Shown one piece after another: positions 2,300 through 55,824 of a stretch of 64,000 nt of DNA; positions within the stretch are counted from its first letter, which is position 1, and every line of letters starts with the position of its first letter. The DNA comes from Cliona cf. orientalis. Taxonomy: Eukaryota; Porifera; Demospongiae; Clionaida; Clionaidae. The notes under the pieces were generated by a model that was not told where the DNA came from, made no database searches, and saw only the letters and a program-made list of their open reading frames with translations. The stretch is from contig OZ005706.1 of NCBI GenBank assembly GCA_963930775.1, positions 5,762,546 to 5,826,545 of the forward strand, given 5' to 3'. Made by a program: the position numbers and the translations under genes.

Positions 2300-2762
2300 G
2301 GGTGCGCTAACTTATTCGTAACGTTGGATGATTCGTTTGACAATTGCGCCATCAGTCACCTCAGTGTATTCATTGGCAACTTACGGAAGGTCCTGAAGAT
2401 TCCTTCTGATGTTGCACTCAAGCTGTGTCGTGTTAATCTCGGAAGCATCAAGCTGATCTTTCAAATCCCTCTTTCTGTCCAGCAAGCCATCTTTCCTCTC
2501 TCCAGTGAGCAGGAAGCAGAGTTATCCAGTCTAAGTGTTGTACAGCTCTCCTGTGGGGACTACCAGTTCACTCCACAACAGATTGAGGTAAAGTTAACAG
2601 ACCCTAGTGGATGGATTTGTTGAGTAGCTCCATTTTCTGTGTTTCCAGGAAGTGGTAGAAGAGCCAGCGACTGATGGAGACTCTGATAGCGGGGCAACTA
2701 TTGACAGCAAAAACACATGTGAGTTAGCATTAATTTTCTTGTATATGAACCCTTGAGCACAT

Positions 2763-15982: not shown

Positions 15983-18900
15983 ATGATGGATGGAGTTGAT
16001 CTCGACATTTCCCAGGCTCGTGCCAATCTTCTCCCTGACAAGTATGGTCGTCGCCGGATTAGCGGGGTCCTTGCAATTAGGAGGTTGTCCAGCCGTCACT
16101 ACAAGAGGCAGATGAGCGAGGGGGACGTGTGTAGTGTATGGGTGCTACTGCTCCTTCTCGTCTGCTCCCTGCATCACGTGATTCACTCCAAGCATTGGAG
16201 ATCATTCAAGAGACGCCATTGGCTCCTTGTCTTCTTTGTGTCTTTGCCGCTGGGTTTTTGTTGGAAGATCGTAAAGAAATTATTGACTGTGGTTTGTAAG
16301 ATCATGTTCAAACTGTTGGCTGTAGTTTGTAAGATTGTAAAGAAACTATTCAAACCGTTGGCTGCAGTGTGTGGTACATTGGTGATTGGCTGCAAGTTTT
16401 ATTATCTTCTGTGGCTGTTTCTCAAATGGTGTTTCCTAACGGCAGAACTTTGTAAACAGCTAGATTACAGTGCAACCAGACCGAGCCAGGATGTGGTGGG
16501 GTCAAAGGTCACCAAGAAGGAGCCAGTTTGCCACGTTTCTTGTGAGGTATTTGTGTCCTCTGGAGTGGGGTGGGTGTGGTCTGGGTCAATCCAGCTTCGA
16601 GCAGCTCAGCTGGTCATACGTCAACGACTCATCTTGTCTGGAGATGTGGAACTCAACCCTGGACCAAGTGAGAAATGAGTGATATTATTCATCATAGAAT
16701 GTTTATGATGATACATATTGTATTTTCTAGATGGTCAAGAAATGGAGGCAGTACTTGCATCAGTGGATGATACTGTATTTGGTAAGTGAAGTTAATTTTC
16801 ATGCAATTAACAGATCTGAAATTTATTGTGGATTCTATCCACAGAAAAAAAGCATTGGAATATTTTGATCATCGAGTGTAAATCATTGTCTAGCAATTGG
16901 GAAAAAGTCAGTGGATATCTGGGCCTCTCCTTTGAGACCATCAAACAGGACAACCCGAGGGACAGCACTGGCTGTTGGAATGAAGCCCTCAAGCACTGGA
17001 TCAAACAAAACTATGACACGAAGCTGTTCGGCCAACCATCATGGAGGAGTCTTCTCAAAGCTGTGGCCGAGGTAGACAAACATCAGTTTCAGAAGTTGGC
17101 AACAGAACATCAATGTGAGAAAACAAAAACTTCTTTGTAATTATTATCTTATCTATTACTGCTGGTGGCATCTTAATACAGGTACTGATGATAAACATCA
17201 GGATAGTAAGGAGTGTGCAGAAACTGCTTCTGGTGAAGCTCAAACTAGCTCCAGTGACTCTAGAGGTTCATTGCTATAATATTATTATAGGACTGAATTG
17301 TTATCAGTTTCAATTTGTATTATACATGTAGGTATTGTTCAAGGTGGTTCAGAATTGGTGCCAGCCGTGGCCATTGCTGAGTCCATTCCCTTCACTGCTC
17401 CTAAGCATAAACAACAAATTTTTGAGCAATGTAGTTTCGAGTCTGAGCAAATGATATTCAAATTTCAAAAACTATTCACGTCCACAAAAAAATCTCTACG
17501 CGAGGAAAAAGTCTCAGTTGCTGAGCTTATCAGTCATTTGGAGTGCTTAGGATCCATCAAACCAACATATGTAGATATTGGTCGATCTCCACTGCGAAGC
17601 CAGCTACCAGGACTAGCTGATGTTAAGACTGTCGATGCTGTCATGTCTGTTGTCAAGGACTACTGTTCATTCTTCAACTACCACATGGTGGAGCACATCA
17701 TCGACGAATTTGGGACGAAGCAAGACAAGGAGAACATGGCCAGCTACAAAGAGGACTTCACCAAGTATGCCGAGTGCTGCATTACACAGTGTCCTTCAGA
17801 GGTTGGGAAAATGAGTGAAGAGGGGTGCGCTAACTTATTCGTAGCGCTGGATGATTCGTTTGACAATTGCGCCGTCAGTCACCTCAATGTATTCATTGGC
17901 AACTTGCGGAAGATCCTGAAGATTCCTTCTGATGTGGCGCTCAGGCTGTGTCGTATTAATCTCGGAAGCATCAAGCTGATCTTTCAGATCCCTCTTTCTG
18001 TCCAGCAAGCCATCTTTCCTCTCTCCAGTGAGCAGGAAGCAGAGTTATCCAGTCTAGGTGTTGTACAGCTCTCCTGTGGGGACTACCAGTTCATTCCACA
18101 ACAGACTGAGGTAAAGTTAACAGACCCTAGTGGATTGAGTAGCTCCATTTTCTGTGTTTCCAGGAAGTGGTAGAGGAGCCAGCGACTGATGGAGACTCAG
18201 ACCACACTGATAGTGGGGCAACTCTCGACAGCAAAAATACATGTGAGTTAGCGTAATTTTTTTGTACTCTGGATCATCCATGTTTTCAATGCTACATGTA
18301 GCTAAATGCAGTTTTAAAGATGTGGGAATGGGCCTGGGGACAATAGGCACTGATCCAAAAATTTTGCATGGAAGGTGGCTACCACTAGTAAATACTGGTG
18401 CAAGGGGGTGGCTGATTGATAAATAAATGGTGGACGTCTCCAACACTATTACTTACGTTTCGGTTTGGCTAGCCACCCTATCTACCTCCCTGGACTAGCG
18501 CCTGGATGGGCCTTCATTTTGATTCCACAATCGTGTACATGCACAGGACGGGTATGGCACTAGATGTACAAACCATTGTTTGGAGCATACCCTTAACAAT
18601 GGTGCTCCCCTCTCTCTCAAATTAGACAGCGATAAACATTTATTCATCCTTTAATTAGTGTTCACCATGATGCATCTATACATCCAGTGTGCAACACATG
18701 CAGGGGCGTAGCCAGGATTTTCTGAGGGGGTTTCCTAGCAGTTGCGCGCGAAGCGCGCGCGAAAAATTTGAAGGCCACGCCCACTTTCGGCCACGCCCTC
18801 TAATTAACGATCGCCATTTTTAGCAAGATTTTGCTAGATTCTCGAGATTTTGGCAGAGAAAAGCACAAAAGGAGGAGATCTAGGCTAAGTTTTAGGAGAT

Positions 18901-21316
18901 TTTAGTGCCTGTACATTGAATCTGGAAACCAAGGGGGTTTCCTGATAGCTAAATCATACTAAGATAATACTGAATCTGACTGCCAGGGGGGGTTTCCGGG
19001 CAACAAGGAAACAACTAAGCTACGCCCCTGACATGTATGGTGGTGCAATGATCAAAATAGCTTAGTATTGCTCTACAGATATTATTGTGAAATAGTCTGT
19101 TGCATATTAATTCAAATGCCCCCATACCGGTGAGCGTGTCAGAGAAACTAAATTTTGCGTGACTTATTAAACTTGTAACTCAAATCTGCACTAGTACTCA
19201 GCGTTCTCTTCACATCTGCTGCATATCGTAGCTGCTCAGGCTAACCCCCACTATATTAAAGGCCCTGCATATTTCTATACTTCTTTGTGTGACAGACAGA
19301 CAGACAGACAAGCATAATGGATTGCTTTACTCCTTGCTGCGCATGCGTGTGCGGGGTAACAATTTCTGGAGCATTTCCTTATGATTTATGGTTTATGGCT
19401 TCAGTTTTGACAATCTAGCCATATTATTATGCATTTTAATTATACAGTGATAAATATCTATTTATCCTTTAAATGGGTAGTACCTGTCTGTGACTTTAGT
19501 TCTCTCATCCACTATCCTCGATTTCTACTCTACTCTACTATCTGCCTCGCTGCATGATCTATCATGGTACTTTTTACCCCGCGTGCATGCGCAAGGGGTA
19601 AAGCAATCGGTTTGTCTGTCTGTCGTCGTCGTTGTTGTTGTCGTCGTTGTCGGTACGAAAATCGCCAGATCTCGCTTTCTAGGCATCTGTGCGTGCTGTA
19701 AGCACAACCAATCAGTAGATATCGGTGAAAAACTGATTTGTACGTGCTTCAAAGTGCTCAAAAAGGCTTACTAGTGCTATAAATTGTGCATTTTCTGTTC
19801 AGCATGCTTATGGTTTATTGACCACACCCAGCATAATAGTATGCTAGTGTGACTGCGCATGCTCAAGTTCAGTGTTGGAAAGGGACGTCAAGTCATAAAA
19901 CGGCTATAATATGCCGCAGAGTGTTGCAATACAGTGACTACAGAGCGCGCGGGGTATGTGCTCTACAGAGCTCTAGTTCTAATCTGTTGTCCCACTAGCT
20001 GCTCCTGCTTATGACTGTCGAACTCAGACTCCCGCTATAATATACAGGCCCTGCATGGCGCTAGTCTATTATTTTATGTGATTATAGGTGATGTTGAGTT
20101 GTCATCGATGGTTGCTGGACTGGCTGTGGGCAAACCTGGGGATACTGCCTCCATCAGTGCTGACTCAGCACTAGGGAGGAGCAGTGTTATCACTGGCACT
20201 ACAGCCGGAGTGACACAGTTCAGTGAGGTGAGTCAGATCACTGACTGCTACTGGTCTGGGCTGTTCTAATGTCCCATATTCCATCCCCAGGATCTGGTGG
20301 ACAGAGAATTAGGTGATCTTGGAATGGGAATGGGACATGGTACATGTATACCTGGTGCAGCAACTAAAAATGAACTACATCTAGCATCGGGGAGGGGAAG
20401 TTTGAAGAAAGTAAGAGAACTCATTGAGGAGAAGCAATTTGATCCACTACAGAAAGAAGACCGGTTTGGAGTGAATGCTCTTCACTACTCAGCTCGACAT
20501 GGACAGCTTGGAGTGCTGAGATATTTCATCAAAGAGAGGGGATGTAATCCAGCGAGTCAAGACAATCGAGCATTCACACCTCTTCATTATGCAGCTCTTG
20601 GTAAACATCTTGATATAGTGTGCTATCTGGTTGCCGAGCAACAGATGGATCCACTGTGTTGTGTTGATGATGGCACTACTCCACTACATCTAGCTTCTCA
20701 GGCTGGGGATATTAATATCGTGAGATATCTAGTGAATGAACTAAGCAAGTTTCTTCTACTCAATGACATAGTCACTAGCAGAGGCAAAGATGGAGCAGCT
20801 CCTATCCACCTCGCAGCTTTGTATGGACACTTGGAAATAGTAAAATTCTTCGCCGCTGAACTTAAGTGTGATCCTACTATTGCTCTACCTGTTGAGTACC
20901 AGGGTAGGACTACTAGGCTTGGAGGTAGAATTGCCCTTCATGATGCTGCCCAAGGAGGACATCTGCACATCGTCAAATACTTAGTAGAACAGTGTAACTG
21001 TAATCCATCGCACTTGGACAGTGAGAGAGTTACACCACTGCACATGGCAGCTCAGTATGGTCATCTTGAGGTAGTGCAGTACCTCACCCTGGAGCAGCAC
21101 TGTGATTCACTGTGTATGGCCAAGAATAACGACACTCCTCTTCATGTTGCTGCCTACTGTGGCCACCTTCAACTTGTTAGATTCTTCGTTGAAGTGCTCC
21201 ACTGTCCTCCTGACGTTAGAGGATGGCACAACATGACACCACTGGACACTGCATGTAGCCAAGGTCATCGCCATGTTGTAAAATATTTAGAGTCCATTCA
21301 TCCTGAAGTTCTGTAA
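15983..21316 (+). CDS. Cluster gene B: multi-pass leader-2A-Death-unknown domain-ankyrin protein, intact
   Basis: Eight exons: 15983-16667, 16731-16781, 16845-17114, 17182-17265, 17332-18110, 18164-18242, 20088-20227 and 20291-21316. They total 3,114 bp, giving 1,037 codons plus stop with no break. The start is the ATGATG at 15,983, conserved in gene D. Residues 1-228 have a basic N-terminus, hydrophobic segments at about 50-67, 80-95 and 126-154, and end in GDVELNPGP. Residues ~246-335 form a Death domain (CWNEALKHWIKQNY, SWRSLLKAVAEVD). ~363-623 is the conserved unnamed domain (VVKDYCSFFNYHMVEHIIDE, LDDSFDN, FPLSSEQEAELSSLG). Acidic and Ser/Thr linkers follow, then about nine ankyrin repeats (697-1037). 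If the 2A motif skips, products of 227 and 810 residues result. It may act in Death-domain innate signalling; this is inference. Confidence 0.85.
16640..16666 (+). other. 2A-like ribosome-skipping motif, gene B
   Basis: It encodes GDVELNPGP, fitting the D(V/I)ExNPGP consensus at which ribosomes skip the final Gly-Pro bond. The upstream context LRAAQLVIRQRLILS is helical and hydrophobic, as in active 2A sequences. It is the last complete codon block of exon 1, and the splice donor follows one base later, so the break falls at the exon and domain border. Confidence 0.85.
18701..19030. mobile_element. MITE (CAGNGGCGTAG family) in intron of gene B
   Basis: It begins CAGGGGCGTAGCCAGG, ends CTACGCCCCTG and is flanked by the 5-bp repeat ACATG. 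Gene C carries the uninterrupted sequence (TACATGTATGG, near 29,697-29,707), which gives an empty site. Confidence 0.85.
19571..19990 (+). repeat. Dispersed repeat R, copy 2
   Basis: A close match to 10,508-10,895 with the same ends and the same TCGTCGTTGTTGTTG stretch. A short inverted piece of its start lies at 19,300-19,370, next to a GACA microsatellite. It is in the intron of gene B before the Gly/Ser/Thr exon. Confidence 0.6.
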
Positions 21317-21690
21317 ATTTTATTTTAATTAAATTTTGTGTTCATCACGGCGTGTAATTCTTCTTTAGCTATTAAATTTTTATGTCTGTGTCTATTGTTT
21401 TTTGATGATTAATTTTTGAGCCAAACACACGACAATAGTGCTCATTGCTGATTGGATTGATGTTTATGGAGGGTGGAGCCAGAGGTTGTATAATTTAATT
21501 AATCAGTTCCTTAAGCATTACATCATCAGCCTCCGCCCCCAACACACACCACACATGTCACAAATTAAACATTTAGCCTGGCAAACAGTATGCATGCACT
21601 AGAATAATAATATTATATTTTCAGTAATTTGTAATTCAGTTATACTTTAGTGATTATGAGTCAAGTACCAGACTAGACCAAACAATAATT
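21317..21690. other. Conserved 3' flank of gene B
   Basis: A/T-rich 3' flank that matches the flanks of C (31,179-31,550), D and E, including CTCCGCCCCCAACACACACC. It is part of the duplicated unit. No gene is seen. Confidence 0.5.
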
Positions 21691-24309
21691 ACATCCCGAG
21701 TCCCAATTCGCAAAAAAGAATTCGGCCCTCGCTATGATGAAATTATGATGAAATATGATGAAATGATGATGAAACCTATGATGAAACTTATGATGTAATT
21801 GCTCTGAATACTGCTTCAAAATGTTTAGCGCGCATGAAAGGTTGTTGGCCGGACCCAGAATTCGAACCTAGCGTAGAAGAAATCGTGGACTATCCGATGA
21901 TATCCTTATGGCGTTTCTCTCAGTTCGCTTTCTCTAGCGAGCTCGCTTTCAGGGCAGGGGGATTTCCCTATTCAGTCGAGCACATGGCAGGTGAAGGTCA
22001 ACCGGCTCAAGCCGCGCGCCCCAATATACGCGTGTACGGAGCATGCGCAGTTTGTCGACGTGTCCTAGTTCGAATTTATGGCGGCTACTTTTCATGAGGG
22101 ACTCGGGATGTAGTCTCTAAGTTGTTCATTACGTCCAGAGTCCCAATTAGAAACAAAGAATTCGGCTCTCGCTATGATGAAATTATGATGAAATGATGAT
22201 GAAACCTATGATGAAATTTATGATGAAACTTATGATGTAATTCCTGTGAAACTGTTTCAAAATGTTTAGCGCGCATGAAAGGTTGTTGGGACCCAGAATT
22301 CGAACCTAGCGTAGAAGACATCGTGGACTATCGATGAGATATGGCGATTTTCTCGGTTCGCTTTCTTTGGCGAGCTCGCACTCGGGGGGATTTCCCTATT
22401 CAGTCGAGCACATGGCGGGTGAAGGTCAACCGGCTCAAGCCGCGCGCCCCAATATTGTACACGTATACGGAGCATGCGCAGTTTGTCGATGTGTCCTAGT
22501 TCGAATTTATGGCGGCGTATTCATGAGGGACTCTGGACGTACTCTCTAAGTTGTTCATTACGTTACGTCCAGAGTCCCAATTAGAAACAAAGAATTCGGC
22601 TCTCGGTATGATGAAATTATGATGAAATGATGATGAAATGATGATGAAACCTATGATGAAACTTATGATGTAATTCCTGTGAAACTGTTTCAAAATGTTT
22701 AGCGCGCATGAAAGGTTGTTGGGACCCAGAATTCGAACCAAGCGTAGAAGACATCGTGGACTATCGATGAGATATGGCGATTTTCTCGGTTCGCTTTCTT
22801 TGGCGAGCTCGCACTCGGGGGGATTTCCCTATTCAGTCGAACACGTGGCAGGTGAAGGTCAACCGGCTCAAGCCGCGCGCCCCGATATTGTACGCGTATA
22901 CGGAGCATGCGCAGTTTGTCGATGTGTCCTAGTTCGAATTTGTGGCGGCGTATTCATGAGGGACTCTGGACGTAGTCTCCAAGTTGTTCATTACGTCCAG
23001 AGTCCCAATTCGCAAAAAAGAATTTGGCCTCGCGATGAGGTAATTATGATGAAATTACGATGAAATGATGATGAAACCTATGATGAAACCTATGATGAAA
23101 CCTATGATGTAATTGCTGTGAAACTGTTTCAAAATGTTTAGCGCGCATGAAAGGTTGTTGGGACCCAGAATTCGAACCTAGCGTAGAAGAGATCGTGGAC
23201 TATCCGATGATATCCTTATGGCGTTTCTCTCAGTTCGCTTTCTCTAGCGAGCTCGCTTTCAGGGCAGGGGGATTTCCCTATTCAGTCGAGCACATGGCAG
23301 GTGGAGGTCAACCGGCTCAAGCCGCGCGCCCCAATATTGTACGCGTATACGGAGCATGCGCAGTTTGTCGATGTGTCCTAGTTCGAATTTATGGCGGCGT
23401 ATTCGTGAGGGACTCTGGACGTAGTCTCTAGGTTGTTCATTACGTCCCGAGTCCCAATTCGCAAAAAAGAATTCGGCCCTCGCTATGATGAAATTATGAT
23501 GAAATATGATGAAATGATGATGAAACCTATGATGAAACTTATGATGTAATTGCTCTGAATACTGCTTCAAAATGTTTAGCGCGCATGAAAGGTTGCTGGG
23601 ACCCAGAATTCGAACCTAGCGTAGAAGAGATCGTGGACTATCCGGTGATATCCTTATGGCGTTTCTCTCAGTTCGCTTTCTCTAGCGAGCTCGCTTTCAG
23701 GGCAGGGGGATTTCCCTATTCAGTCGAGCACATGGCAGGTGAAGGTCAACGTGCAACCGGCTCAAGCCGCGCGCCCCAATATACGCGTGTACGGAGCATG
23801 CGCAGTTTGTCGACGTGTTCCAGTTCGAATTTATGGCGGCTACTTTTCATGAGGGACTCGGGATGTAGTCTCTTAGTTGTTCATTACGTCCAGAGTCCCA
23901 ATCAACAAATCGATTCGGCCTCGCGATGAGGTAATTATGATGAATAATGATGAAACCTATGATGAAATTATGATGTAATTGCTGTGAAACTGTTTCAAAA
24001 TGTTTAGCGCTCATGAAAGGTTGTTGGGACCCAGAATTCGAACCTAGCGTAGAAGAGATCGTGGACTATCCGATGATATCCTTTTGGCGTTTCTCTCAGT
24101 TCGCTTTCTCTAGCGAGCTCGCTTTCAGGGCAGGGGGATTTCCCTATTCAGTCGAGCACATTGCAGGTGAAGGTCAACCGGCTCAAGCCGCGCGCCCCAA
24201 TATTGTACGCGTATACGGAGCATGCGCAGTTTGTCAGTGTGTCCTAGTTTGAATTTATGGCGGCATATTCGTGAGGGACTCTGGACGTAGTCTCTGAGTT
24301 GTTCATTAT
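21691..24309 (+). repeat. Six-unit tandem array of the 440-bp U repeat
   Basis: Unit starts are near 21,691, 22,132, 22,563, 22,995, 23,443 and 23,886 (period about 425-448 bp). Each unit begins near AGTCCCAATT, has an ATGATGAAA-rich stretch and a GC-rich middle, and ends AGGGACTCTGGACGTAGTC plus a linker ending TTGTTCATTACGTCC. Single or paired units also occur at 3,237-4,078 and 26,485-26,952. It separates gene B from its UBASH3 stub. Confidence 0.85.
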
Positions 24310-24311
24310 CT

Positions 24312-24862
24312 CCCCAGTAGAAATTTACTTTTCTGTGGTTATGAGGTAATTGTGGTGTAATGTATGATGAAACCTATGGTGTAATCTCTTAGGTAATCTA
24401 TGAGGTAATTATGAGAAAATCCAGGGCCTCGCTGGAGCCTTTCTGGGACTTGAAAATCAGTAAATATGTGGAGTATCTTACGCGCGTATCCAGCGAATAC
24501 ATTACAAGCTGAGCGCTACTTTCTCTGAGAAGTACCGTTGGTTGAACTTCACGTGTTTCCTTGGCTTACGTAATGCCGTGGATAAATAAAGCTAGCCTTT
24601 CGCTATATATAGCACGCATCATTGTCACAAGGGGCTGGCCCGCGCGGCGACTGCAGCAACGTGACCAACCTGAAATTCGGAAGGAATACTGTGCTATCGA
24701 GTTCGTCTCTGTGATTGAAGCACCGAAACCTGTCGCTATCAAGGTTGAGAGTCGATCTTAGACGCCATCTCCATGATTTCTGGGCCAGCATGGATCGATG
24801 TGTACGCATTCTATTGACGACCTTTTACCACATGCACCATTACACTGTGCAACCACTGGGGA
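24312..24862 (+). repeat. Dispersed repeat S with CCCCAGT ends, copy 2
   Basis: It begins CCCCAGTAGAAATTTAC and ends GCAACCACTGGGG, and is the inverted counterpart of 2,763-3,236. It abuts the U array directly, as in gene A. Confidence 0.65.
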
Positions 24863-25069
24863 GATGGTCAAGGGTTCATTATTACAACATCACCAAAAAT
24901 AATAATAATTATCAGTGAAACAAAAGAAAATTACCTCAGTAATAATATTAAGTATTATGACATAATTGTGATGATCGAGAAAATTCAACAATTGTATGTG
25001 GACAATAACTGCTGCATTAATAAACTGAGTATGGACATACATGGCACAGAACTATGCAGAGTCTAACAT

Positions 25070-26064: not shown

Positions 26065-26157
26065 ATGTGTGATTTGTGTGTTGTGTGGTGGGCGTGGTTT
26101 GGGTCACTCCTGCTCGGAGTGTCCTGGTTGGTCATTGCCCTGCGTCTCATCATGTCT

Positions 26158-26184
26158 GGAGATGTTGAGCTCAACCCTGGACCT
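26158..26184 (+). other. 2A-like ribosome-skipping motif, gene C
   Basis: It encodes GDVELNPGP at residues 32-40, directly after a hydrophobic helix (WLVIALRLIMS). The whole leader is 40 residues long, so signal sequence and 2A are effectively one unit. This arrangement is known to me from sea-urchin NLR-type proteins. Confidence 0.85.
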
Positions 26185-26484
26185 ATCGACCAAGGTTGGT
26201 CTCTCAGCAATGCCTGCCATCAGTGCCGTTCATTAATGATATTCATGATATTATTTTTATAGAAGATCGAGAGATTCTCTCTAAAGTGGATGACACAACT
26301 TTGGGTATGTAAATATGTGATGATAAGATACCTGTGGTTTAATATACTGTAGCTAGCTACTGTATATAGCTAAAATTTTTCGAGGGATACAATTTTTGCT
26401 GTTTTTGTGAATAACTGAGCACAGTACGAAAATTAGACCCCCCAAATAGCGCAATTGTACCATATGTATGATGAGCAGTGAAAA

Positions 26485-26952: not shown

Positions 26953-28903
26953 AATCCAAAATGGTATAGATCGCCTATATCCATGAAAATTGAATCCCTC
27001 AAAAATTTTCTACTATTATAATAAAATATTATATGGCATAATAGTGTGTGAGCTGATGAATACACTCATTGATATTCATGGTTTATTCTTGCCAGAGGAG
27101 GATGACTGGAACATAGTGATTGATGAGTGCAGCTCAGTGTCTGCTAAGTGGGAGCAGGTCAGTGGGTTCCTTGGACTCCGTCTCTCCCTCATCGACACCA
27201 TCAAACAGAACCACCCTGGAGACAACGTTGGCTGTTGGAATGATGCCCTCAAGCACTGGATCAAACACAACTACAACACAAGCAAGTTCCATGAGCCATC
27301 GTGGAGGTCTCTGCTCAAAGCCATCGCTAGGGTCGACAGGGCACTCTTCAAGAAATTAGCAGCTGAGCACCAAAGTGAGAATGGACCAAGTTCAATTTTT
27401 AAGTATATTTTTGAAGAGAGAAATTTCATTTCTATCTGTTGCAGTGAGTGTAAGTGTTGAAGTGGATCATGTGGAGAGAGACATGGAGAGATTGAAGGTG
27501 ACAACAAGTGATGTCCAAGAGTCTAAAGGTTAGCTACAATAACAGCATTAACTCAGCGAATACTTTCATCAATGTGTACTGCTATTTTACAGATAGTGGT
27601 AATGCTATAAAGTCGCCTGATGCTGGTACACAGGCTGCCGACAGTGGAGGGGCTACAGTGGAACACCAAGGTCCGTCTTTTTGCATAAGAATTCTTACAA
27701 ACTAACTTTATTGCTTGTATGACCTGTCTAATATCTACTATTTTCATCTTGTGTTTTATCCTCTCAGAACCAGTTGCTGAGTCAGACCCGACAGTACCCA
27801 CCGTATCTCCTCAGCAGAAGGAGCAGCTTCGTCGAAAGCAATACTTCGAGTCCGAGCAAATGATGTACAAATTTCAGAAGCTTTTCACGGACACAAAAAA
27901 GTCACTACGAGAGGAAAAAGTTCCTGTTGATGAGCTAGTTGGTCATTTTGAGTGCTTGGGCTACATCAAACCAACGTTCACTGACTCTGACCTTCCATCT
28001 TTACGACACCAGCTACCAGGACTAGCTGACGCTAAGACTGTCGATGCTGTCATGTCCGTCGTCAAGGACTACTGTTCATTCTTCAACTACCACATGGTGG
28101 AGCACATCATCGACGAATTCGGGACGAAGCAAGACAAGGAGAACATGGCCAGCTACAAAGAGGACTTCACCAAGTATGCCGAGTGCTGCATTACACAGTG
28201 TCCTTCAGAGGTTGGGAAAATGAATGAAGAGGGGTGTGCTAACTTATTCGTAACACTGGATGATTCATTCGATAATTGCGCCGTCAGTCACCTCAATGTA
28301 TTCATTGGCAACTTGCGGAAGATCCTGAAGATTCCTTCTGGTGTGGCGCTCAGGCTGTGTCGCGTTAATCAAGGAAGCATCAAGCTGATCTTTCAAATCC
28401 CTCTTTCTCTCCAGCAAACCATCTTTCCTCTCTCCAGTGAGCAGGAAGCAGAGTTATCCAGTCTAGGTGTTGTACAGCTCTCCTGTGGGGACTACCAGTT
28501 CACTCCACAACAGACTGAGGTAAAGTTAACAGACCCTAGTGGATGGATTTGTTGAGTAGCTCCATTTTGTGTGTTTCCAGGAAGTGGTAGAGGAGCCAGC
28601 GACTGATGGAGACTCAGACCACACTGATAGTGGGGCAACTGTCCACAGCAAAAACACATGTGAGTTAGCAGTTACAAGGCATAATTTTCTTGTACCCTGG
28701 ATCAACCATGTTTTCGATGGTACATGTGATTTTTAAGATGTGGGAATGGGCCTTGGAATGATAGGCACTGATCCAAAAATTTTGCATGAAGGTGGCTGAT
28801 GGGGTGGCTACCCATAGTAAACTATACTGATGCAAGGGGGTGGCTGATTGGTAATCCAATACTATTACTTATGTTGCATAAAAATGAAGGGAAAGCCCAT
28901 CTA

Positions 28904-29474: not shown

Positions 29475-31178
29475 TACTCCCGGCCCTGGATCAGCCCCTA
29501 AAATTTATGAGCCTTCATTTTGATTCCACAATCGTGTACATGACAGTATGGTACTAGATATACAAACCATTGTTTGGAGCATACCCTTAACAATGGTGCA
29601 CCCCTCCCTCTAGATAATGATAAACATCTATTCATCTTTCAATTGGGTGAGCCTGAGTGAGCCTAAATGATGCATCTATACATCCAGTGTGCAATACATG
29701 TATGGTGGTGCAATCATCAATATAGCTTAGTGTTGCTCTACAGATACACTGCGAAATAGTCTGTTGCATATTCAAATGCCCCCATACAGTTGAGCGTGTC
29801 AGAGAAACTAAATTTTGCTCTGCTCACTAAAGTTGTAACTCAAATCTGCACTAGTACTCAGCATTCTTTTCATATCTGCTGTCGTAGCCGCACCCCGCTA
29901 TAATTATACAGGCCCTGCATATTTCTATACTTTGTGTGACTATAGGTGATGCTGAGTTGTCATCGATGGCTGCTGGACTGGCTGTGGGCAAACCTGCATG
30001 GGGATACTGCCTCCATCAGTGCTGACTCAGCACTAGGGAGGAGCAGTGTTATCACTGGCACTACAGCCGGAGTGACACAGTTCAGTGAGGTGAGTCAGAT
30101 CACTGACTGCTACTGGTCTGGGCTGTTCTAATGTCCCATATTCCATTCCCAGGATCTGGTGGAGAGAGAATTAGGTGATCTTGGAATGGGAATGGGACAT
30201 GGTATAGATGGTGCATATCAACTGAAAATGAACTATTTCAAGCATCATACAGGGGAGACTTGAAGAAAGTAAAAGAACTCATTGAGGAGAAGCAATTTGA
30301 TCCACTACAGAAAGAAGGCCAGTTTGGAGGGAATGTTCTTCACTACTCAGCTCAGTTTGGACAGCTACGAGTGCTGAGATATTTCATCGAAGAGAGGGGA
30401 TGTAGTCCAGCAATTCAAGATAATCGAGCAATGACACCTCTTCATTATGCGACTCTTGGTAAACATCTTGATATAGTTCACTATCTTGTTACCAAACAAC
30501 AGATGGATCCACTGTGTTGTGCTGACGATGGCACTACTCCACTACATGCTGCTTCTCAGGAAGGGGACATTAATGTCGTGAGATATCTAGTGAATGAACT
30601 AAGCAAGTTTCTTCCACTCAAAGACATAGTTACTAGCAGAGGCAAAGATGGAGGAGCTCCTATTCACCACGCAGCTTTAAATGGACATTTGGAAATAATA
30701 ATGTTTTTCATCGCTAAATTATACTGTGATCCTAACATTGCTCGACCTGTGGAGTACCAGGGTAGGACTACTGGAGTTGGAGGTAGAATTGCCCTTCATG
30801 ATGCTGCCCAACGAGGACATCTGCACGTCATCAAATACTTAGTAGAACAGTGTAATTGTAATCCATCGCCCTTGGACAGTGAGAGAGTAACACCGCTGCA
30901 CATGGCAGCTCAGTGGGGTCATATTGAGGTAGTGCGGTACCTCACCCTGGAACAGCACTGCGACCCACTAGCTGTGTGTGGCCAAGGATAACAACACTCC
31001 TCTTCATACTGCTGCCGCATTTGGCCAACTTCAACTTGTTAGATTCTTCGTTGAAGTGCTCCACTGTCCTCCTGACGTTAGAGGACAGCTCAACATGACA
31101 CCACTGGACAAAGCACGTAGCCGAGGTCACCGCCATGTTGTACGATATTTAGAGTCCATTCATCCTAAACTTCAGTAA

Positions 31179-31735
31179 ATTTTATTATTTTGTGTTCATC
31201 ACTGTGTGTAAATCTTCTTTCGCTATTAATTTTGTCTGTGTCTATTGTTTTTTTTGATAATTAAATTTTTGAGACAAAAAACATACGACAATAGTGCTCA
31301 TTGCTGATTGGATTGATGTTTGTGGTGGGTGGAGCGAGAGGTTAATTAATTAGTTCCTTAAGCATTACATCATCAGACTCCGCCCCCAACACACACCACA
31401 CACGTCACAAATTAAACATTAAATTTTAGCCTGGCAAACAGAGCAGTATGCACTATAATAATATTATGTATGAGTTTCAGTAATTTATAATTCAGTTACA
31501 CTTTAGTGATTATGAGTCAAGTACCAGACTAGACCAAATAATAATTATTACAACATCACCAAAAATAATAGTTATCATTGAAACAAAAGAAAATTACATC
31601 AGTAATAATATTAAGTTTTATAATATTTAATATGATGATTGAGAAAATTCAACAATTGTATGTGGACAATAACTGCTGCATTAACAAACTGAGTATGGAC
31701 ATACATGGCACAGAACTACGCAGAGTCTAACATCA
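31179..31735. other. Conserved 3' flank of gene C
   Basis: Same A/T-rich spacer as behind A, B, D and E. It includes CTCCGCCCCCAACACACACC and the run up to GCACAGAACTACGCAGAG before the opposite-strand UBASH3 stub. Confidence 0.5.
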
Positions 31736-32231
31736 ACAATCACTGCAGGCATCTCCAATCAAATCGGATGTTTGGTGCGTGAGTGAGAGGTTGGATGGGA
31801 GGATCGATAAAGTCCCAAGTGCTATTCTTTCCAAACTCGCTCTCCTGACACACACAAAGTCCACAGTAGGGGATCTTCTGGACAATCTTGGTCAGCTCCT
31901 GGGCGGTGCGGGGCTGAGCTCCAACTAGATGTCTGGTACAAGCCTCCAGCGTAGCAGCGTGACCGACAAATATCACGTTGCCAGAAGCTGGCCCAATCGT
32001 CTTCAGAATCAGCCGGGTGATGTTAAACATTCTCTTGTAGAATTCCAAGTGCGTCTCGTTTGGTTTGAGGTCTTGAAGAGCAACCTGCGACACATTACTG
32101 GTGTCAACGATTAGGCCACATTTGCTGAGCTCAGCAGGTGTCATGAATGTGGGGGAACTCCCTCAGCACCACGCTAGCCACTCAAAAGCCCGTTCTCGAT
32201 CCTCAGCTTGATGCTCGAGTCCTGGAGACCT
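31736..32231 (-). pseudogene. UBASH3 3' fragment behind gene C
   Basis: On the minus strand, codons from TPAELSKCGLIVDTSNV through VGHAATLEACTRHLVGAQP to the end FDWRCLQ are open. Upstream of that the frame is shifted near 32,150-32,200, and the fragment is cut at about 32,231, the shared breakpoint. It includes the second catalytic histidine but lacks RHAER, so it cannot be an active phosphatase by itself. Confidence 0.75.
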
Positions 32232-32972
32232 CGGACCAAGGAGATGGAGTCGAAGCAACCTAAAGATGTGCTGAATCAGCATTACGAGCCCCACCTACTT
32301 TAGGAGACAAGACGAGCCACTCCCACTTTAGGTTTACAGAACTCAGTAATCTCATCGTATACTAAAATTTCAAGATTCTTTCTTGCCAGCGAAGCAAACA
32401 AGTGAATTTTCGTGACTCTGTAATCGACGCAATCCACGTCTCAGTGAAGTTCTTTCGCGTTGGCCTCTTAGATTGTCTACATCCTTTTACCATTTCACGC
32501 CAAGTAAGTCAGTATTGATGATCTGTACGCTAGCCGCGGTGGAGTGGAGTGATAGCGAGAAATAAACATCCGCCATTTTGTTCTTCCTAGAGTTACGAGT
32601 GTCGTTGATCTGCTGGTGGGTCTATCTGTCGTCCAGGCTCCGCCCAACCTTTAATCAGATTAATATCGTCAGATCTGCCACCCCTCCTATTTATTTTGAT
32701 CAACTATAAAAATTAATTAATGCCTCCACCGCAAAGCAGTTTTGCCATATTTAATTTTGACCTCTACACAGTTCATCAAGCGCAGAAACCTCCGAGAGAG
32801 AGAGAATTGTAATTGACTTGATTTGTGGTCGATCTACCAATCATCTTTATTCTTTCATTATCCAATTTTTTTGTGGCACTGACAGCAAGAAGAGTCTCCC
32901 CGTACCCTGACGTGTGTCGATAAACATCCGCCATTTTGTTGCTTATTGTACACTCCCATCACCAGTGCTCCG
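32232..32972 (+). promoter_or_regulatory. 5' region of gene D with both promoter types in series
   Basis: 32,232-32,660 is the type-2 block seen before C and E (core at 32,562-32,580). 32,700-32,972 is the type-1 block seen before B (core at 32,921-32,940). The short signal-2A exon expected after the type-2 block is missing; the sequence is replaced just after the CCAAT box. Confidence 0.45.
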
Positions 32973-35900
32973 ATGATGGATGGAGTTGATCTCGACGTTT
33001 CCCAGGCTCGTGCCGATCTTCTCCCTGACAAGTATGATCGTCGCCGGATCAGCGGGGTCCTTGCAATTAGGAGGTTGTCCAGCCGTCACTACAAGAGGCA
33101 GATGAGCGAGGGGGACGTGTGTAGTGTATGGGTGCTACTGCTCCTTCTCGTCTACTCCCTGCATCATGTGATTCACTCCAAGCAGTGGCGGTCGTTCAAG
33201 AGACGCCATTGGCTCCTTGTCTTCTTTGTCTCATTGCCACTGGGATTTTGTTGGAAGATTGTAAAGAAACTGTTCAAACTGTTGGCTGTAGTGTGTGGTA
33301 CATTGGCAATCGGCTGCAAATTTTATTATCTTCTGTGGCTGTTTCTCAAATGGTGTTTCCTAACGGCAGAACTTTGTAAACAGTTAGACTACAATGCAAC
33401 CAGACCGAGCTGCGATGTGGTGAGGTCAAAGGTCACCAAGGAGCCAGTTGGCCACATTTCTTGTGAGGTATATGTGTACTCTGACGTGGGGTGGGTGTTA
33501 TCTGGGTCAATCCAGCTTCGAGCAGCTCAGCTGATCATACGTCAACGACTCATCTTGTCTGGAGATGTGGAACTCAACCCTGGACCTCTCGACCAAGGTA
33601 TTCCAATCCTGTCCTTATAAGTTTTAACATAGATATGGTATGTAGCAATTTAGTGCTTAACAAAATATTATTCTCTTTATTTAGATCAGAAGGTTGAAGA
33701 AGTTCTTATGACTGTTGATGACAAAACCTTTGGTATGATTTCAATATATGCCATCTGCAGCTGCCAAGACTATGCAACTTGTTTTATACCATTGCAGAAA
33801 TAGAGGACTGGAATGTTGTGGTGATAGAGTGCAAGTCACTAACTACAAGGTGGAAAGAGTTGAGCATCTCCCTCGGCCTATCAAGTGATGTGATCGATGA
33901 CATTAAGGGCTCTGGTGACAACTACCACTGCTGGAGTGAAGCCCTCAAACACTGGATCAAACAAAACTACAACACAGCGACATTTGATCAACCTTCATGG
34001 AGGAGTCTTCTCAAAGCTGTGGCAGAAATTGACAAGCTTTTATTTAAAAGATTGGCTGCAAAACACTCTCAGTCTGGTATGTGTACATGTATGTGCAAGG
34101 TTGTTGTGCTTATCATAATATTCTATAATATTTGTAGCTTCCAGTGACGAAACAAAAGAAAGTAATAATTCTCAAGAAGATGTTGCACATGTACAAGGTA
34201 TTACATTGACCTCCTATGGTTGATTACATGTGTAGGACTCATCAGTGGGTTCTTATTCTTTCTGATAGACAAACCTGCTTCTCCCAGGACCAATACACCG
34301 ACTGCTGTGGTTGCTAGGCCTTGTTTCACCTTCCACTGCTTGAATTTGAAGGATATGAGTGACGAAAGGAGACGAGAACTGTACCAAGAGCTTTATGCTG
34401 ATTCAGAAGATATGATGTACAAATTCCAGGGACTATTTGAATTGACAACGGACTCTTTAGAGAGGAGAAACATTTCAGCAAAAGAGCTGACTCGTCATTT
34501 AAAATGTTTGGGACAGTTGAAGCCAACATTTGATGATTCTGGTGAACCTGATTTCACACATCAATTGCCAGAACTAAGAAAATGTGAGTCTGTTGATGAC
34601 GCCATGTCAGTGGTCAATAAGTACTGTTCATTCTTTAATTATCGGATGGTGGAACTAATCATACAGAAGCTAGGAACAGAGCAAGACAAAGAGAAGCTAG
34701 CCAAGTACAAGGAGGATTTTGCTAAGTACGGTGAGCGTCATGTGTTCAAGTGTCCATCAGAAATTGGTGAAATTTATGAAGAAGGACAAGCAAATATGTT
34801 TGTGACACTGGATGATTCATTTGACAAGTGCAATGTGAACCATTTATCGGCATTTGTAAGGAACTTGCAGAAAGTTTTGAACATCTCTGGTGTATCACTA
34901 CGACTATGTCGCATTGGACCTGGAAGCCTGAAGCTCATCTTTCAACTCTCTCTCGTTGTTCAGCAAGCCATCTTTCCTCTCTCCAGCGACCAGGAGGCTG
35001 AGTTAGTCCACCTTGGCATTATACAGCTCTCCTGTGGGGACTACCAGTTTACAGTAGACGATATGATGGTAAGTACAATAATTGTGTTAATTTACCTACA
35101 CCCAGTGTGTGGGGGGAGTGGGTGAAGGTCTTCAGCTTGCTAGATTATTTTATATAGCAGTGAAGGCTTAGCTTCATACATGTATAATATCTCATGCTCA
35201 ACCATGAAAATATGCTATGTTCCTCATGTATTTATGTATGTACCTTCAATTTTATTCCAATTTTGTTGCAGGAAGTGGTAGAGGAGCCAGTTACTGATGG
35301 AGACTCAGACCACAAGGATAGTGAGGGGAGTGTGGTGGACAGCATGGAGGCCTGTGAGTGATATCACTTTACTTCTGGTGTAGCATTGCATGACTCTCCT
35401 TGTAATCTGCGACCCCTACCCCCCCCCCCCTCTATCTATGCCTCTCCTCTAGGATTGTATGTTGAAACAAACGATACCTATATTGCAACTAAAGGTAGTT
35501 ATGAGAATTTGAAAAAGAATTAATAACATCCCATTGAATGATGATTAGATGATTACTCACAAAAGAGATTTATTTTTTGAGCATCAACTCGGATTGAAAT
35601 CTTTAATATCAAATACCATATTCGCTCGATCAAACGCTGCGGCTACTATTTATTTCACCACCCGAGTTTGTGCAGCGTTTATTCGAGAGCGGCGACTATT
35701 CGAGAGCGGCGTTTATTAATACCAGTAGCTGCCAGAGAGGCAATCCTTAGAGAAACGGTCGATTTATACTGCTGATCTAGGAGATTCTGGCCCCTTTGCT
35801 GATGTAGAAGAAGGTTAGAACTTGTTCTAGACTGTTTATCGTGTACTTGCCATCGAAAACGAGTCGCGAGGCATGTCCACGTGCTGGTGTTCTCGAATAG

Positions 35901-37329
35901 TAGGCGTGGCACGGCTACTATTCGAGAGCAGCCACTATTTCGTTCAACACTTCCGGAGGTGCGGCGACTATTCGAGAGCAGCGACTAATCGAGAGCGGCG
36001 TCTGATCGAGCGAATACGGTATCTGTGACTCATGCATGCACACTAAAGGCATTCTGTATACATTTCCTCATAACTACTTCATTTTCTCCCTCAGATGATG
36101 CTGAGTCAGCAGTAGCTGTCCAGGGTGCTAGGTATGGACTGGCTGTGGGCAAACCTGGGGATACTGCCTCCATCAGTGCTGACTCAGCACTAGGGAGGAG
36201 CAGTGTTATCACTGGCACTACAGCCGGAGTGACACAGTTCAGTGAGGTGAGTCAGATCACTGACTGCTACTGGTCTGGGCTGTTCTAATGTCCCATATTC
36301 CATTCCCAGGATCTGGTGGACAGAGAATTAGGTGATCTTGGAATGGGAATGGGACATGGTGTAGCTGGTGCATCAACTGAAAATGAACTACATCGAGCAT
36401 CAGCCATTGGAGACTTGAAGAAAGTAAAAGAACTCATTGAGGAGAAGCAATTTGATCCACTACAGAAAGAAGGCCGGTTTGGAGCGAATGTTCTTCACTA
36501 CTCAGCTCGGTATGGACAGTTTGGAGTGCTGAGATATTTCATTGAAGAGAGGGGATGTAGTCCAGCAAGTCAAGACAATCGAGCATGGACACCTCTTCAT
36601 TTTGCAGCAGTTGGTAAACATCTTCATATAGTCCACTATCTGGTTGCCGAGCAACAGATGGATCCACTGTGTTGTGCTGACAATGGTGATACTCCACTAC
36701 ATCTAGCTTCTCAGGGTGGGGACATTAATGTCGTGAGATATCTAGTGAATGAGCTAAGAAAGTTTCTTTTACTCAAGGACATAGTCACTAGCAGAGGCAT
36801 CAATGGAAGTGCTCCTATCAACCCTGCAGCAGGATTTGGACACTTAGAAATAGTAAAATTCTTCATTACTGAACTAAACTGTGATGCCAACATTGCTTAT
36901 CCTGTTGAGTACCAGGGTAAGACTACTGGACTTGGAGGTAGAATTGCCCTTCATTCTGCTGCCCAAGGAGGACATCTGCACGTCATCAAATACTTAGTAG
37001 AACAGTGTAACTGTAATCCATCACACTTGGACAGTGAGAGAGTAACACCGCTGCACATGGCAGCTCAAGACGGTCATCTTGAGGTAGTGCAGTACCTCAC
37101 CCTGGAGCAGCACTGTGACCCACTGTGTACTAAGAAGAATAACGACACTCCTCTTCATCATGCTGCCTCATGTGGCCACCTTCAACTTGTTATATTCTTC
37201 ATTGAAGTGCTCCACTGTCCTCCTGACATTAGAGGATTGCGCAACATGACACCACTGGACATGGCACGTAGCCGAGATCACCGCCATGTTGTACAATATT
37301 TAGAGTCCATTAATCCTAAACTTCAGTAA
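32973..37329 (+). CDS. Cluster gene D: multi-pass leader-2A-Death-unknown domain-ankyrin protein, intact and most diverged
   Basis: Exons: 32973-33597, 33685-33732, 33798-34076, 34138-34197, 34269-35068, 35272-35353, 36095-36246 and 36310-37329. They total 3,066 bp, 1,021 codons plus stop, with no break. The leader resembles that of B but is 23 residues shorter in the hydrophobic middle; 2A is at residues 197-205. The Death domain (DWNVVVIECKSL, CWSEALKHWIKQNY) and the unnamed domain (VVNKYCSFFNYRMVELIIQK, NMFVTLDDSFDKC, FPLSSDQEAELVHLG) differ clearly from A, B, C and E. The ankyrin exon and the AVGKPGDTASISADSALGR part are nearly identical to the others. Predicted products are 204 and 817 residues. 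The sharp change in similarity along the gene suggests gene conversion. Confidence 0.85.
33561..33587 (+). other. 2A-like ribosome-skipping motif, gene D
   Basis: It encodes GDVELNPGP after LRAAQLIIRQRLILS, the same context as gene B. The motif is retained although the rest of gene D has diverged, which argues for selection on it. Confidence 0.85.
35616..36019. mobile_element. CCGTA-type MITE in intron of gene D
   Basis: The ends are CCATATTCGCTCGATCA and CTGATCGAGCGAATACGG, flanked by TA. The interior is rich in CGAGAGCGGCGACTATT repeats. It lies just before the Gly/Ser/Thr exon. Confidence 0.75.
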
Positions 37330-37494
37330 ATTAATTTGTGTTGATCATTGCGTGTAATTCTTCTTTTGCTAATTAATTTTATGTTTGTGTCTATTGTTTT
37401 TTGATGATCAATTTTTGAGATAAAAAACACACGACAATAGTGTTCATTGCTGATTGGATTGATGTTTGTGGTGGGTGGAGCTAGAGGTTGTATA

Positions 37495-37686
37495 CCGTAT
37501 AGCGGGAAATTTTCGAGGGAGAAAACTTTCACGGATCGGTAGGAAAGGAGCATTTCGCGGAATGTTAAAATTGGTCGCATAATGGGTGTGGCATGCCTAG
37601 AATTTCGTGGAGAAAACTTTCGCGGATGGCGGAAAAATCGCGAAATTCATGAAAGTTTTCTCCCTCGAAAGTTTCCCGCTATACGG
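37495..37686. mobile_element. CCGTATAGCGGGAAA MITE behind gene D
   Basis: A 192-bp near-palindrome with ends CCGTATAGCGGGAAATTTTC and its complement. The flanking TA is single in the empty sites behind B and E (GAGGTTGTATAATTTAATT), which proves a TA target. Confidence 0.9.
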
Positions 37687-38081
37687 TAATTTAATTAATC
37701 AGTTCCTTAAGCATTACATCATCAGACTCCGCCCCCAACACACACCACACGTGTCATAAATTAAACATTTAGCCTGGCAAACAGAGCAGTATGCACTATA
37801 ATAATATTTATGTATGTTTCAGTAATTTGTAATTTAGTTACATTTTAGTGATTATGAGTTAAGTACCAGACTAGACCAAACAATAATTATTACAACATCA
37901 CCAAAAATAATAATTATCAGTGAAACAAAAGAAAATTACCTCAGTAATAATATTAAGTATTATGACATAATTGTGATGATTGAGAAAATTCAACAATTGT
38001 ATGTGAACAATAACTGCTGCATTAATAAACTGAGTACGGACATACATGGCACAGAACTACGCAGAGTCTAACATCAACAAT

Positions 38082-38583
38082 CACTGCAGGTATCTCCAAT
38101 CAAATCGGATGTTTGGTGCACAAGTGAGAGGTGGGATGGGAGGATCGATGAAGTCCCAAGAGCTGTTCTTTCCAAACTCGCTCTCCTGACACACACAAAG
38201 TCCACAGTAGGGGATCTTCTGGACAATCTTGGTCAGCTCCTGGGCGGTGCGGGGCTGAGCTCCAACTAGCTGTCTGGTACAAGCCTCCAGCGTAGCAGCG
38301 TGACCGACAAACATCACGTTGCCAGAAGCTGGCCCAATCGTCTTCAGAATCAGCCGGGTAATGTTAAACATTCTCTTGTAGAATTCCAAGTGCGTCTCGT
38401 TTGGTTTGAGGTCTTGAAGAGCGACCTGCGACACACAACTGGTGTCCACGATTAGGCCACATTTGCTGAGCTCAGCAGGTGTCATGAATGTGGGGAAACT
38501 CCCTCGGCACCACGCTAGCCACTCAAAAAGCCCGTTCTCGATCCTCAGCTTGATGCTCGGGTCCTGGAGACCTTGGACCAAGA
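38082..38583 (-). pseudogene. UBASH3 3' fragment behind gene D
   Basis: The best-kept stub. The minus-strand frame is open from VQGLQDPSIKLRIENGLFEW through VGHAATLEACTRQLVG to FDWRYLQ, then stop. It lacks SH3, RHAER and every upstream domain. It is cut at the common breakpoint (about 38,583), where gene E's promoter block begins. The frame happens to extend upstream into that block. Confidence 0.8.
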
Positions 38584-38972
38584 AGATGGAGAGTTCAAGA
38601 CGGGACACCTGAAAATGTGCTGAATCAGCATTACGAGCCCCACCCACTTTATGAGACAAGACGAGCCACTCCCACTTTAGGTTTACAGAACTCAGTAATC
38701 TCATCGTATACTAGGATTTCAAGATTCTTTCTTGCCAGCGAAGCAAACAAGTGAATTTTCGTGACTCTGTAATCGACGCAATCCACGTCTCAGTGAAGTT
38801 CTTTCGCGTTGGCCTCTTAGATTGTCTACATCCTTTTACCATTTCACGCCAAGTAAGTCAGTATTGATGATCTGTACGCTAGCCGCGGTGGAGTGGAGTG
38901 ATAGCGAGAGATAAACATCCGCCATTTTGTTCTTCCTAAAGTTACGAGTGTCGTTGATCTGCTGGTGGGTCT
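38584..38972 (+). promoter_or_regulatory. 5' region of gene E (type-2 promoter, split by a MITE)
   Basis: Same block as before C, with the core ATAAACATCCGCCATTTTG at 38,911-38,930 and a donor-like CCAAGTAAGTC near 38,850. The block resumes after the 351-bp MITE at 38,973-39,323. Confidence 0.4.
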
Positions 38973-39323
38973 TAGTCTCGTGCCCAGCCTCTTTATCGCA
39001 CGCGGAAAAAGAGTCTGGTGAAACGCGTATTCAATTTTGGCGTACGTGACGTATTCTGACACGGGCACAATGAATGTCATTATAAGCGATGGCGCAATCA
39101 CTGTTTAACATTATTATTCGCGCAAAGTATTTGAAAAGCACCTACCGTAGGCTATGGCGCCAGCGGGATCCTTGGACAGTGAAGTCCGAGTGCTATGCTT
39201 GTCTTGTTGCCTGATCTGCAATCTGATTGGACGCGGCCAATCTCACCGCGCGGAACCAAAATTGAATACGCGTTTCACCAGACTCTTTTTCCGCGTGCGA
39301 TAAAGAGGCTGGGCACGAGACTA
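38973..39323. mobile_element. MULE-like MITE (TAGTCTCG ends), copy 2
   Basis: It begins TAGTCTCGTGCCCAGCC and ends GGCTGGGCACGAGACTA, flanked by the 9-bp repeat GGTGGGTCT (38,964-38,972 and 39,324-39,332). Genes C and D have the empty site (CTGGTGGGTCTATCTG). Confidence 0.9.
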
Positions 39324-39524
39324 GGTGGGTCTATCTGTCGTCCAGGCTCCGCCCAACCTTCTCCCTGACCAATCAGATTGTCGTCAGATCAGCCACGCCC
39401 TCCTATTTTCAACAATAATTAATATCAGCTGATGTGTGATTTGTGTGTTGTGTGGTGGGCGTGGTTTGGGTCACTCCTGCTCGGAGCGTCCTGGTTGGTC
39501 ATTGCCCTGCGTCTCATCATGTCT

Positions 39525-39551
39525 GGAGATGTTGAGCTCAACCCTGGACCT
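39525..39551 (+). other. 2A-like ribosome-skipping motif, gene E
   Basis: It encodes GDVELNPGP at residues 32-40 of the precursor, with the same upstream context as gene C. Confidence 0.85.
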
Positions 39552-39820
39552 ATCGACCAAGGTTGGTCTCTCAGCAATGCCTGCCATCAGTGCCGTTCAT
39601 TAATGATATTATTTTTATAGAAGATCAAGAGATTCTCTCTAAAGTGGATGATACAACTTTGGGTATGTAATTATGTGATAATAAGATACCTGTGATTTAA
39701 TACACAGTAGCTAGTTACTGTATAGCTAAAATTTTTCGAGCGATACAATTTTTGCTGTTTTCGTGAATTACTGAGCACAGAACTAAAATCAGACCCCCCA
39801 AATAGCACAATTGTACCATA

Positions 39821-45170: not shown

Positions 45171-55824
<10,654 letters not shown>

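Follow-up and report, generated by a model that had tools for sequence, protein, structure and literature searches.

Background

According to Li et al. 2026 (PMC12846837), 2A peptides act within the ribosome exit tunnel, leaving out one Gly-Pro bond, and have the core (D/G/C/N)(V/I)ExNPGP; in one class, D at position 12 goes together with an L-rich upstream hexapeptide that ends in (A/S/C)G. The same source describes 2A skipping as rare in cellular genes. A described cellular case is SpNLR2A of the sea urchin (2016, PMC4981915), for which the report gives an active peptide, SpNLR2A6, with about 80% skipping in vitro as a qualitative estimate, and secretion of part of the unskipped reporter fusion. 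In sponges, the account of the demosponge Dysidea avara reports large Death and NACHT families, with some NLRs possessing transmembrane segments (PMC12909245), a likeness to the species studied here; a text search of that paper gave no occurrence of "NPGP" or "ribosom". The searched text of PMC5890393 contains both "2A-like" and "Amphimedon".

The presence of 2A in cellular NLR genes of sea urchin is already known; otherwise, the making of two proteins from one message by 2A has been described mainly for viruses and mobile elements. The literature searched gave no paper that we recognised as dealing with 2A in cellular genes of sponges; related cases may be contained in Rao et al. 2025 (Cell Rep), reportedly a search for 2A in viral and cellular proteomes. 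Within the same literature, what appears to be new here is the scale of the phenomenon, a phase-1 2A exon that is portable and serves Death-ankyrin, NACHT and Roc/COR-like genes alike, and the existence of polytopic leaders under their own selection.

Here we analyse a window of 64,000 nt of Cliona cf. orientalis (contig OZ005706.1 of assembly GCA_963930775.1; C18:5762546-5826545 in our labels), together with the genome, searched as 217 Mb in 149 contigs. The window holds four tandem genes, named A to D, and the 3' part of a fifth. Like SpNLR2A, these genes combine an N-terminal hydrophobic leader with D(V/I)ExNPGP in a large Death-type family of putative innate immunity, and the 26-aa leader of SpNLR2A6 (PMC4981915) has the same design as the about 40-aa leaders of genes B and D. 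However, the window genes are of Death-like/TRADD-N-like/ankyrin type and not NACHT-LRR, two of the four leaders are 204-227 aa long with 3-4 hydrophobic segments, and the 2A ends a phase-1 exon common to several gene classes; moreover, activity was assayed for the sea urchin peptide, whereas that of the window 2A is predicted from sequence. With the viral StopGo/2A peptides of the L-rich class (motifs 2/6 in Li et al. 2026, PMC12846837) the window genes share DVELNPGP after an L-rich stretch ending in (S)G, although here the motif is found at an exon boundary of an intron-containing cellular gene and not inside a polyprotein ORF, and position 15 is L where S is preferred in the viral peptides.

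Tandem genes with a 2A motif closing exon 1

When the window was scanned in six frames, GDVELNPGP was in frame at four positions only, 16640, 26158, 33561 and 39525, always on the + strand and always as the end of an open exon 1; a wider 2A motif returned the same four sites. A fifth NPGP string, at 24418, is without D(V/I)Ex and surrounded by stops. From base composition, 1.4e-6 motifs are expected in the window and 0.005 in the genome; with four observed in the window, a chance origin was ruled out. The octapeptide DVELNPGP of all four genes agrees with the known 2A core, and the hexapeptide before the core (RLILSG in genes A and C, RLIMSG in genes B and D) is L-rich, ends in SG and is accompanied by D12, as in the known upstream class, a match judged by eye and not by FIMO. 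The features of the array are the following (positions in the window).

301..5918, + strand: fifth (leftmost) gene, 3' part; its leader/2A exon lies outside the window at C18:5761416-5762084 (L051:816-1484)
15983..16667, + strand: gene A exon 1, 227-aa leader with N-terminal helices and 4 hydrophobic segments, ending in 2A; donor GTGAGA, phase 1
16640..16666, + strand: gene A 2A core GDVELNPG/P, from the motif scan
16731..16781, + strand: gene A exon 2, phase 1-1 linker exon
16845..17114, + strand: gene A exon 3, Death-like, Pfam sub-threshold; related to an exon at locus L031 that is above the cut-off
17182..17265, + strand: gene A exon 4, from the splice model
17332..18110, + strand: gene A exon 5, its second half encoding the TRADD-like N-terminal domain
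18164..18242, + strand: gene A exon 6, from the splice model
20088..20227, + strand: gene A exon 7, from the splice model
20291..21316, + strand: gene A exon 8, ankyrin repeats and stop
26065..26194, + strand: gene B exon 1, signal-anchor-like leader of about 40 aa that ends in 2A; donor in phase 1, GTTGGT (poor)
26158..26184, + strand: gene B 2A core, from the motif scan
26263..26304, + strand: gene B exon 2, from the splice model
27096..27374, + strand: gene B exon 3, Death-like
32973..33597, + strand: gene C exon 1, leader of 204 aa in which 3 segments are hydrophobic, followed by 2A and three more codons; donor GTATTC, phase 1
33561..33587, + strand: gene C 2A core, from the motif scan
33685..33732, + strand: gene C exon 2, from the splice model
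33798..34076, + strand: gene C exon 3, Death-like
36316..37329, + strand: gene C ankyrin exon, ORF limits
39432..39561, + strand: gene D exon 1, about 40-aa leader with 2A
39525..39551, + strand: gene D 2A core, from the motif scan
39621..39662, + strand: gene D exon 2, from the splice model
40389..40667, + strand: gene D exon 3, Death-like, judged from its similarity to gene B
42930..43628, + strand: gene D ankyrin region, ORF limits

Insertion of a retrotransposon or virus at the window sites was ruled out, since the leaders are coding exons with donors and have Death-like exons downstream. The tandem array extends leftward, with motifs listed at C18:5667610, 5677659, 5685429, 5737954, 5753825 and 5762058, the last of which, 488 bases left of the window, belongs to exon 1 of the fifth gene. 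The model of gene A has eight exons, all GT-AG, and encodes a stop-free protein of 1037 aa in the order leader, 2A, Death-like, TRADD-N-like and ankyrin repeats; removal of the 227-aa leader leaves a predicted downstream product of 810 aa beginning with Pro. Exons 1-3 are joinable in frame into the Death-like exon in all four window genes (GT-AG, phases 1,1,1, no stops), the full in-frame models of genes B, C and D covering these three exons. The predicted donors of genes B and D (GTTGGT) and of gene C (GTATTC) are weak.

The Death domain PF00531 was matched in genes A, B and C with 13.3, 19.0 and 16.0 bits (Pfam E-values 0.094, 0.0016 and 0.013), below the gathering score of 22.6, and hence these exons are called Death-like; the paralogous exon at L031 is above the Pfam cut-off (26.4 bits, E 7.8e-6). 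The TRADD-like N-terminal domain PF20694 reaches 24.6 bits in gene A, above its gathering score of 23.7, and 23.1 bits at locus L044, just under it. The AF2 model of gene A exon 5 is alpha/beta, and Foldseek gave no PDB match at E <= 0.001, several of the weaker matches being ferredoxin-like. No NACHT was found by Pfam in the window genes, which have ankyrin instead. Relatives of the middle exon were confirmed neither in viral contigs nor in genome contigs. Of the two protein searches with the spliced gene A model, the full-length one was dominated by ankyrins and gave four weak ankyrin-domain matches, and the other gave nine unspliced-looking proteins without the leader.

These results can be compared with the preliminary description of this DNA, which had reported GDVELNPGP closing exon 1 in four tandem genes and had placed exon 1 of a fifth gene beyond the window: the six-frame scan confirmed all four positions, and the missing exon was located and carries the motif. 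The position of the 2A between a hydrophobic leader and a Death/ankyrin protein is borne out by the motif scan, the gene A model and hydropathy, and the downstream piece of ~810 residues starting with Pro, which had been foreseen, has its counterpart in gene A. What had been called the diverged gene D, in which the motif was said to be kept, is the gene at 32973-37329 (here gene C), with GDVELNPGP at 33561. As for the domains, ankyrin stands, while Death has to be restated as sub-threshold in genes A-C and passing in the L031 paralogue.

Other features of the window

Between the fifth gene and gene A there are two minisatellite arrays (11304-12554 and 13313-14302) with ~80-bp units, and their consensus sequences look like mutual reverse complements. 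On the opposite strand within the gene array lie a histidine-phosphatase-like piece at 6521-7093 (-) (His_Phos_1, E 9.9e-5) and a similar-looking piece at 38084-38704 (-) without a Pfam match; both are possibly UBASH3/TULA-like. To the right of the array, the stretch 45105-49804 (+) contains IPT/TIG domains (E 4.1e-17) and is presumably plexin-like; the ORF at 45105 has no Pfam match.

Leader peptides

Two kinds of leader are present in the window, a long one (genes A and C) and an about 40-aa, signal-anchor-like one (genes B and D). The short leaders are hydrophobic, with KD 19-residue means of 1.66 (gene B) and 1.72 (gene D), the membrane character of all leaders being judged from KD hydropathy. 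For leader A the AF2 model (50-row alignment, mean pLDDT 70) is helical to residue 164 and then disordered, with a low-confidence helix at 204-218 directly before the 2A, and its fold has no PDB match at E <= 0.001.

Across five families, pairwise dN/dS of the leader ranged from 0.23 to 0.63, and the leader is therefore a genuine protein, subject to purifying selection. Nonsynonymous changes are few in the last 20 codons of leaders that otherwise diverge. In an alignment of 18 leader sequences, 11 of the 18 invariant columns fall within the last 17 residues, eight of these 11 belonging to the motif used for selecting the sequences. Three of the gene-leader families can be aligned with one another.

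Conservation of the 2A tail

Loci found through the motif cannot show selection for 2A, and the genome was therefore searched with the first 199 residues of leader A, from which the 2A end had been removed. This gave 24 genomic loci (28 matches, merged by hand), and the 2A tail is kept in all of them. The exact core was seen in 21 of the 24, where a listed motif follows at 61-64 bp downstream (20 loci) or at 441 bp (one locus); the other three are located past the end of the motif listing, and there the 29-residue 2A tail is matched at 93-97% up to the last residue. An in-frame stop interrupts two of the copies (C13:249271 and C13:338295), which may be decayed. A second leader family, searched with protein P0067 as query and with the 2A included, gave 13 merged loci, each with a listed motif, plus six weaker matches to the first family.

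Public contigs were searched with a profile of 18 leaders, 2A included, scoring the 7998 candidates that shared most words, and 155 leader homologue proteins were obtained. Among the 120 listed, 114 have the canonical motif, and the remaining six are ORFs of 108-179 aa which end or leave the frame before the motif position. The preliminary description had proposed recurrence elsewhere as a check, and the 2A was thus found again both in the 24 leader copies of the genome and in these 114 homologues. It should be noted that P0016 and P0038 are flagged as the window's own, that P0024 is by eye the same as L051, and that some homologues come from the same species. In the genome, P0067 and P0052 have best full-length matches of 76% and 77%, respectively, rising to 80% over parts of P0052. 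Judging from these identities, at least one other species, perhaps two, probably shares the leader-2A arrangement, unless paralogues are missing from the assembly.

Genome-wide occurrence and downstream genes

The GDVExNPGP DNA pattern occurs at 105 sites of the genome (59 +, 46 -), 100 of which are listed with positions, and the reversed-pattern control gave 0. A broader pattern, in which position 12 may also be Gly or Glu and position 13 also Ile or Met, gave 153 sites (100 listed; control 0). Among those listed of the 48 sites so added, nearly all are DIE, including many near-identical DIEVNPGP sites on C1, which may be relatives of the retrotransposon found at locus L042.

Taking the 105 sites in the order of their listing, we followed 10-kb stretches at the first 20, about 8.5 kb of each being downstream. 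A Death-like exon was found downstream in 19 of the 20 loci, the remaining one being L042. Death is above the Pfam cut-off at L031 and L034 and below it at L033, L035, L037, L039, L045 and L050; the other Death-like loci were assigned by BLASTP matches to those exons or to that of gene B at >=48% identity, a test in which only L042 and L045 had no match to the exon of another locus. As regards the rest of the protein, the pattern is wider than in the preliminary description and includes NACHT and Roc/COR-like genes. Pfam identified ankyrin at L031, L032, L038, L044 and L049 (L048 and L050 were added by eye, from similarity to L049) and NACHT at six of the 20 loci (L034, L035, L036, L039, L040 and L043; E 2.5e-18 to 4e-22), and gave weak support for Roc/COR-like domains at L045-L047 (E 0.003-0.004). 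L033 and L041 have the Death-like and the middle exon with no ankyrin in reach, and L037 the Death-like exon only.

The association was also evaluated from positions. A gene-A-like Death exon lies within 4 kb downstream on the same strand for 45 of the 100 listed motifs, compared with 2 upstream and 0 on the opposite strand. For NACHT exons, a motif was found within 8 kb upstream in 11 of 103 (1 downstream, 0 opposite), a count using 143 of the 153 motif sites and 103 of the 104 matches (a second fragment was dropped), with part of the candidates scored. Conversely, 86 of 131 Death-like exon matches have no listed exact 2A within 4 kb upstream, notably 30 on C10, and 92 of the 103 NACHT exons have no motif within 8 kb upstream; the 2A exon is therefore optional and not required by these families. 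Most of the 30 Death exons on C10 lie at about 7.5-8.8 Mb and form a natural contrast set. On the same contig, L056 has two 2A motifs 370 bp apart on the same strand (C10:760122 and 760492), with different leaders.

The phase-1 rule

Donors were evaluated in the DNA of 48 motif sites (the first 30 listed matches, five array sites, of which four in the window and one to its left, and 13 from 12 hand-picked stretches), a sample chosen for having the motif and containing family copies that do not count as independent. Within 30 nt after NPGP, the 5' splice site with the best score is in phase 1 in 44 of the 48, at 1-13 nt, and all 38 donors with a score of at least 4 are in phase 1. The rule spans unrelated leaders and variable distances between 2A and donor (1, 4, 7, 10 or 13 nt), which speaks strongly, though indirectly, for splicing of the 2A exon to what follows. 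The four exceptions are the retrotransposon-type ORFs L012 and L054, and L057 and L060; at L057, by reading of the sequence, a GTAAGT 49 nt further on is also in phase 1. At L060 (C17:631204) the open frame continues past the 2A with no nearby donor, and it was not recognised as the PHD retroelement.

A retrotransposon with 2A

The element at L042 (L042:5532-8843, -) is an open non-LTR retrotransposon ORF of 1104 aa with N-terminal 2A, PHD, endonuclease and reverse transcriptase; there is no good donor after its motif and its leader is unlike the gene leaders. L054 resembles a relative of this element. Non-LTR retrotransposons with a hydrophobic N-terminus plus 2A are said to have been described by Odon et al. 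in 2013, and in these two traits, represented in this genome by L042, they are like the window genes; they differ in that one long ORF includes the RT and the 2A is not followed by a good donor.

Proposed mechanism and alternatives

The explanation we prefer is that the first exon of each gene codes for a leader directed to membranes, with an active 2A (StopGo) at its end, and would be spliced in phase 1 onto a Death-like/TRADD-N-like/ankyrin protein. At NPG^P the ribosome would usually omit the Gly-Pro bond, so that two products would result: the separate leader, a polytopic protein in its long form and a signal-anchor stub in its short form, and a free cytosolic Death/ankyrin protein starting with Pro. 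Ribosomes that do not skip, a minority, would give a fusion carried by the leader to the ER or membrane. By analogy with SpNLR2A6, the short leaders of genes B and D may target this rarer unskipped product to the ER, most of the Death/ankyrin protein being cytosolic, and the long leaders of genes A and C may additionally become free membrane proteins with an independent existence. The 2A exon would then be a portable module of several Death-type families with a presumed immune role. That genuine 2A skipping separates a membrane leader from a cytosolic Death-type sensor or adaptor is a prediction drawn from the genomic data, to which we assign a probability of roughly 0.83. Counting against it are the outcome of the protein searches, the sub-threshold Death-like exons of the window, the weak donors of genes B, C and D, the many Death-like and NACHT exons with no motif upstream and the in-frame stops of two leader copies.

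Death/ankyrin modules are, from general knowledge, expected to be cytosolic, and the A and C leaders, with several hydrophobic segments and their own selection, go beyond the need of a mere signal. Both points weigh against the hypothesis that dual targeting is the purpose, namely that skipping is deliberately incomplete, so that the Death/ankyrin protein of one gene would occur both in the cytosol and in a secreted or membrane form. SpNLR2A6 is described as behaving in this way with reporters in HeLa and plant cells (PMC4981915), and the about 40-aa leaders of genes B and D share its anatomy, but on balance we consider this purpose rather unlikely. If the 2A were instead an inactive relic, the genes would make one membrane-anchored leader-Death-ankyrin fusion, in line with the sponge NLRs with transmembrane segments reported as putatively membrane-bound (PMC12909245); retention of the tail in all 24 leader copies examined, the few nonsynonymous changes in the last 20 codons and the invariant final columns (even considering that eight of the 11 are the selection motif) make this improbable.

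It could also be supposed that the 2A exons are derived from a non-LTR retrotransposon and hitch-hike without function, and the same genome does contain such an ORF at L042. Its different leader and lack of a good donor, however, together with the mutual alignment of three gene-leader families and the purifying selection on leaders, render this very improbable; an ancient origin of the exons from such an element is possible, but lack of function is unlikely. The most improbable reading is that exon 1 is a separate gene or a pseudo-exon, not spliced to the Death gene. Read-through into the intron does meet a stop soon after NPGP in the window genes and in most loci examined, but the phase-1 rule across unrelated leaders and varying spacing, the in-frame joins in all four window genes and the directional clustering of Death exons all point to a connection with the downstream gene.

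Significance

Taking the preferred explanation of active skipping further, we tentatively propose, at somewhat less than even odds, that a portable 2A first exon couples a conserved family of membrane leaders, in fixed stoichiometry from one message, to changing intracellular Death-type sensors (ankyrin, NACHT, Roc/COR), that the leader product has its own job, and that the "transmembrane" sponge NLRs may partly be two proteins.

At least 105 exact 2A sites exist in one animal genome; of the 20 whose downstream DNA was followed, 19 stand at the head of Death-like genes. Provided that these sites are active, they would constitute a natural system for co-translational protein separation outside viruses, and annotations predicting membrane-anchored sensors from such genes would be wrong. 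The finding could extend 2A-tagged immune-type genes from echinoderms to a sponge, and whether this reflects convergence or deep ancestry becomes testable.
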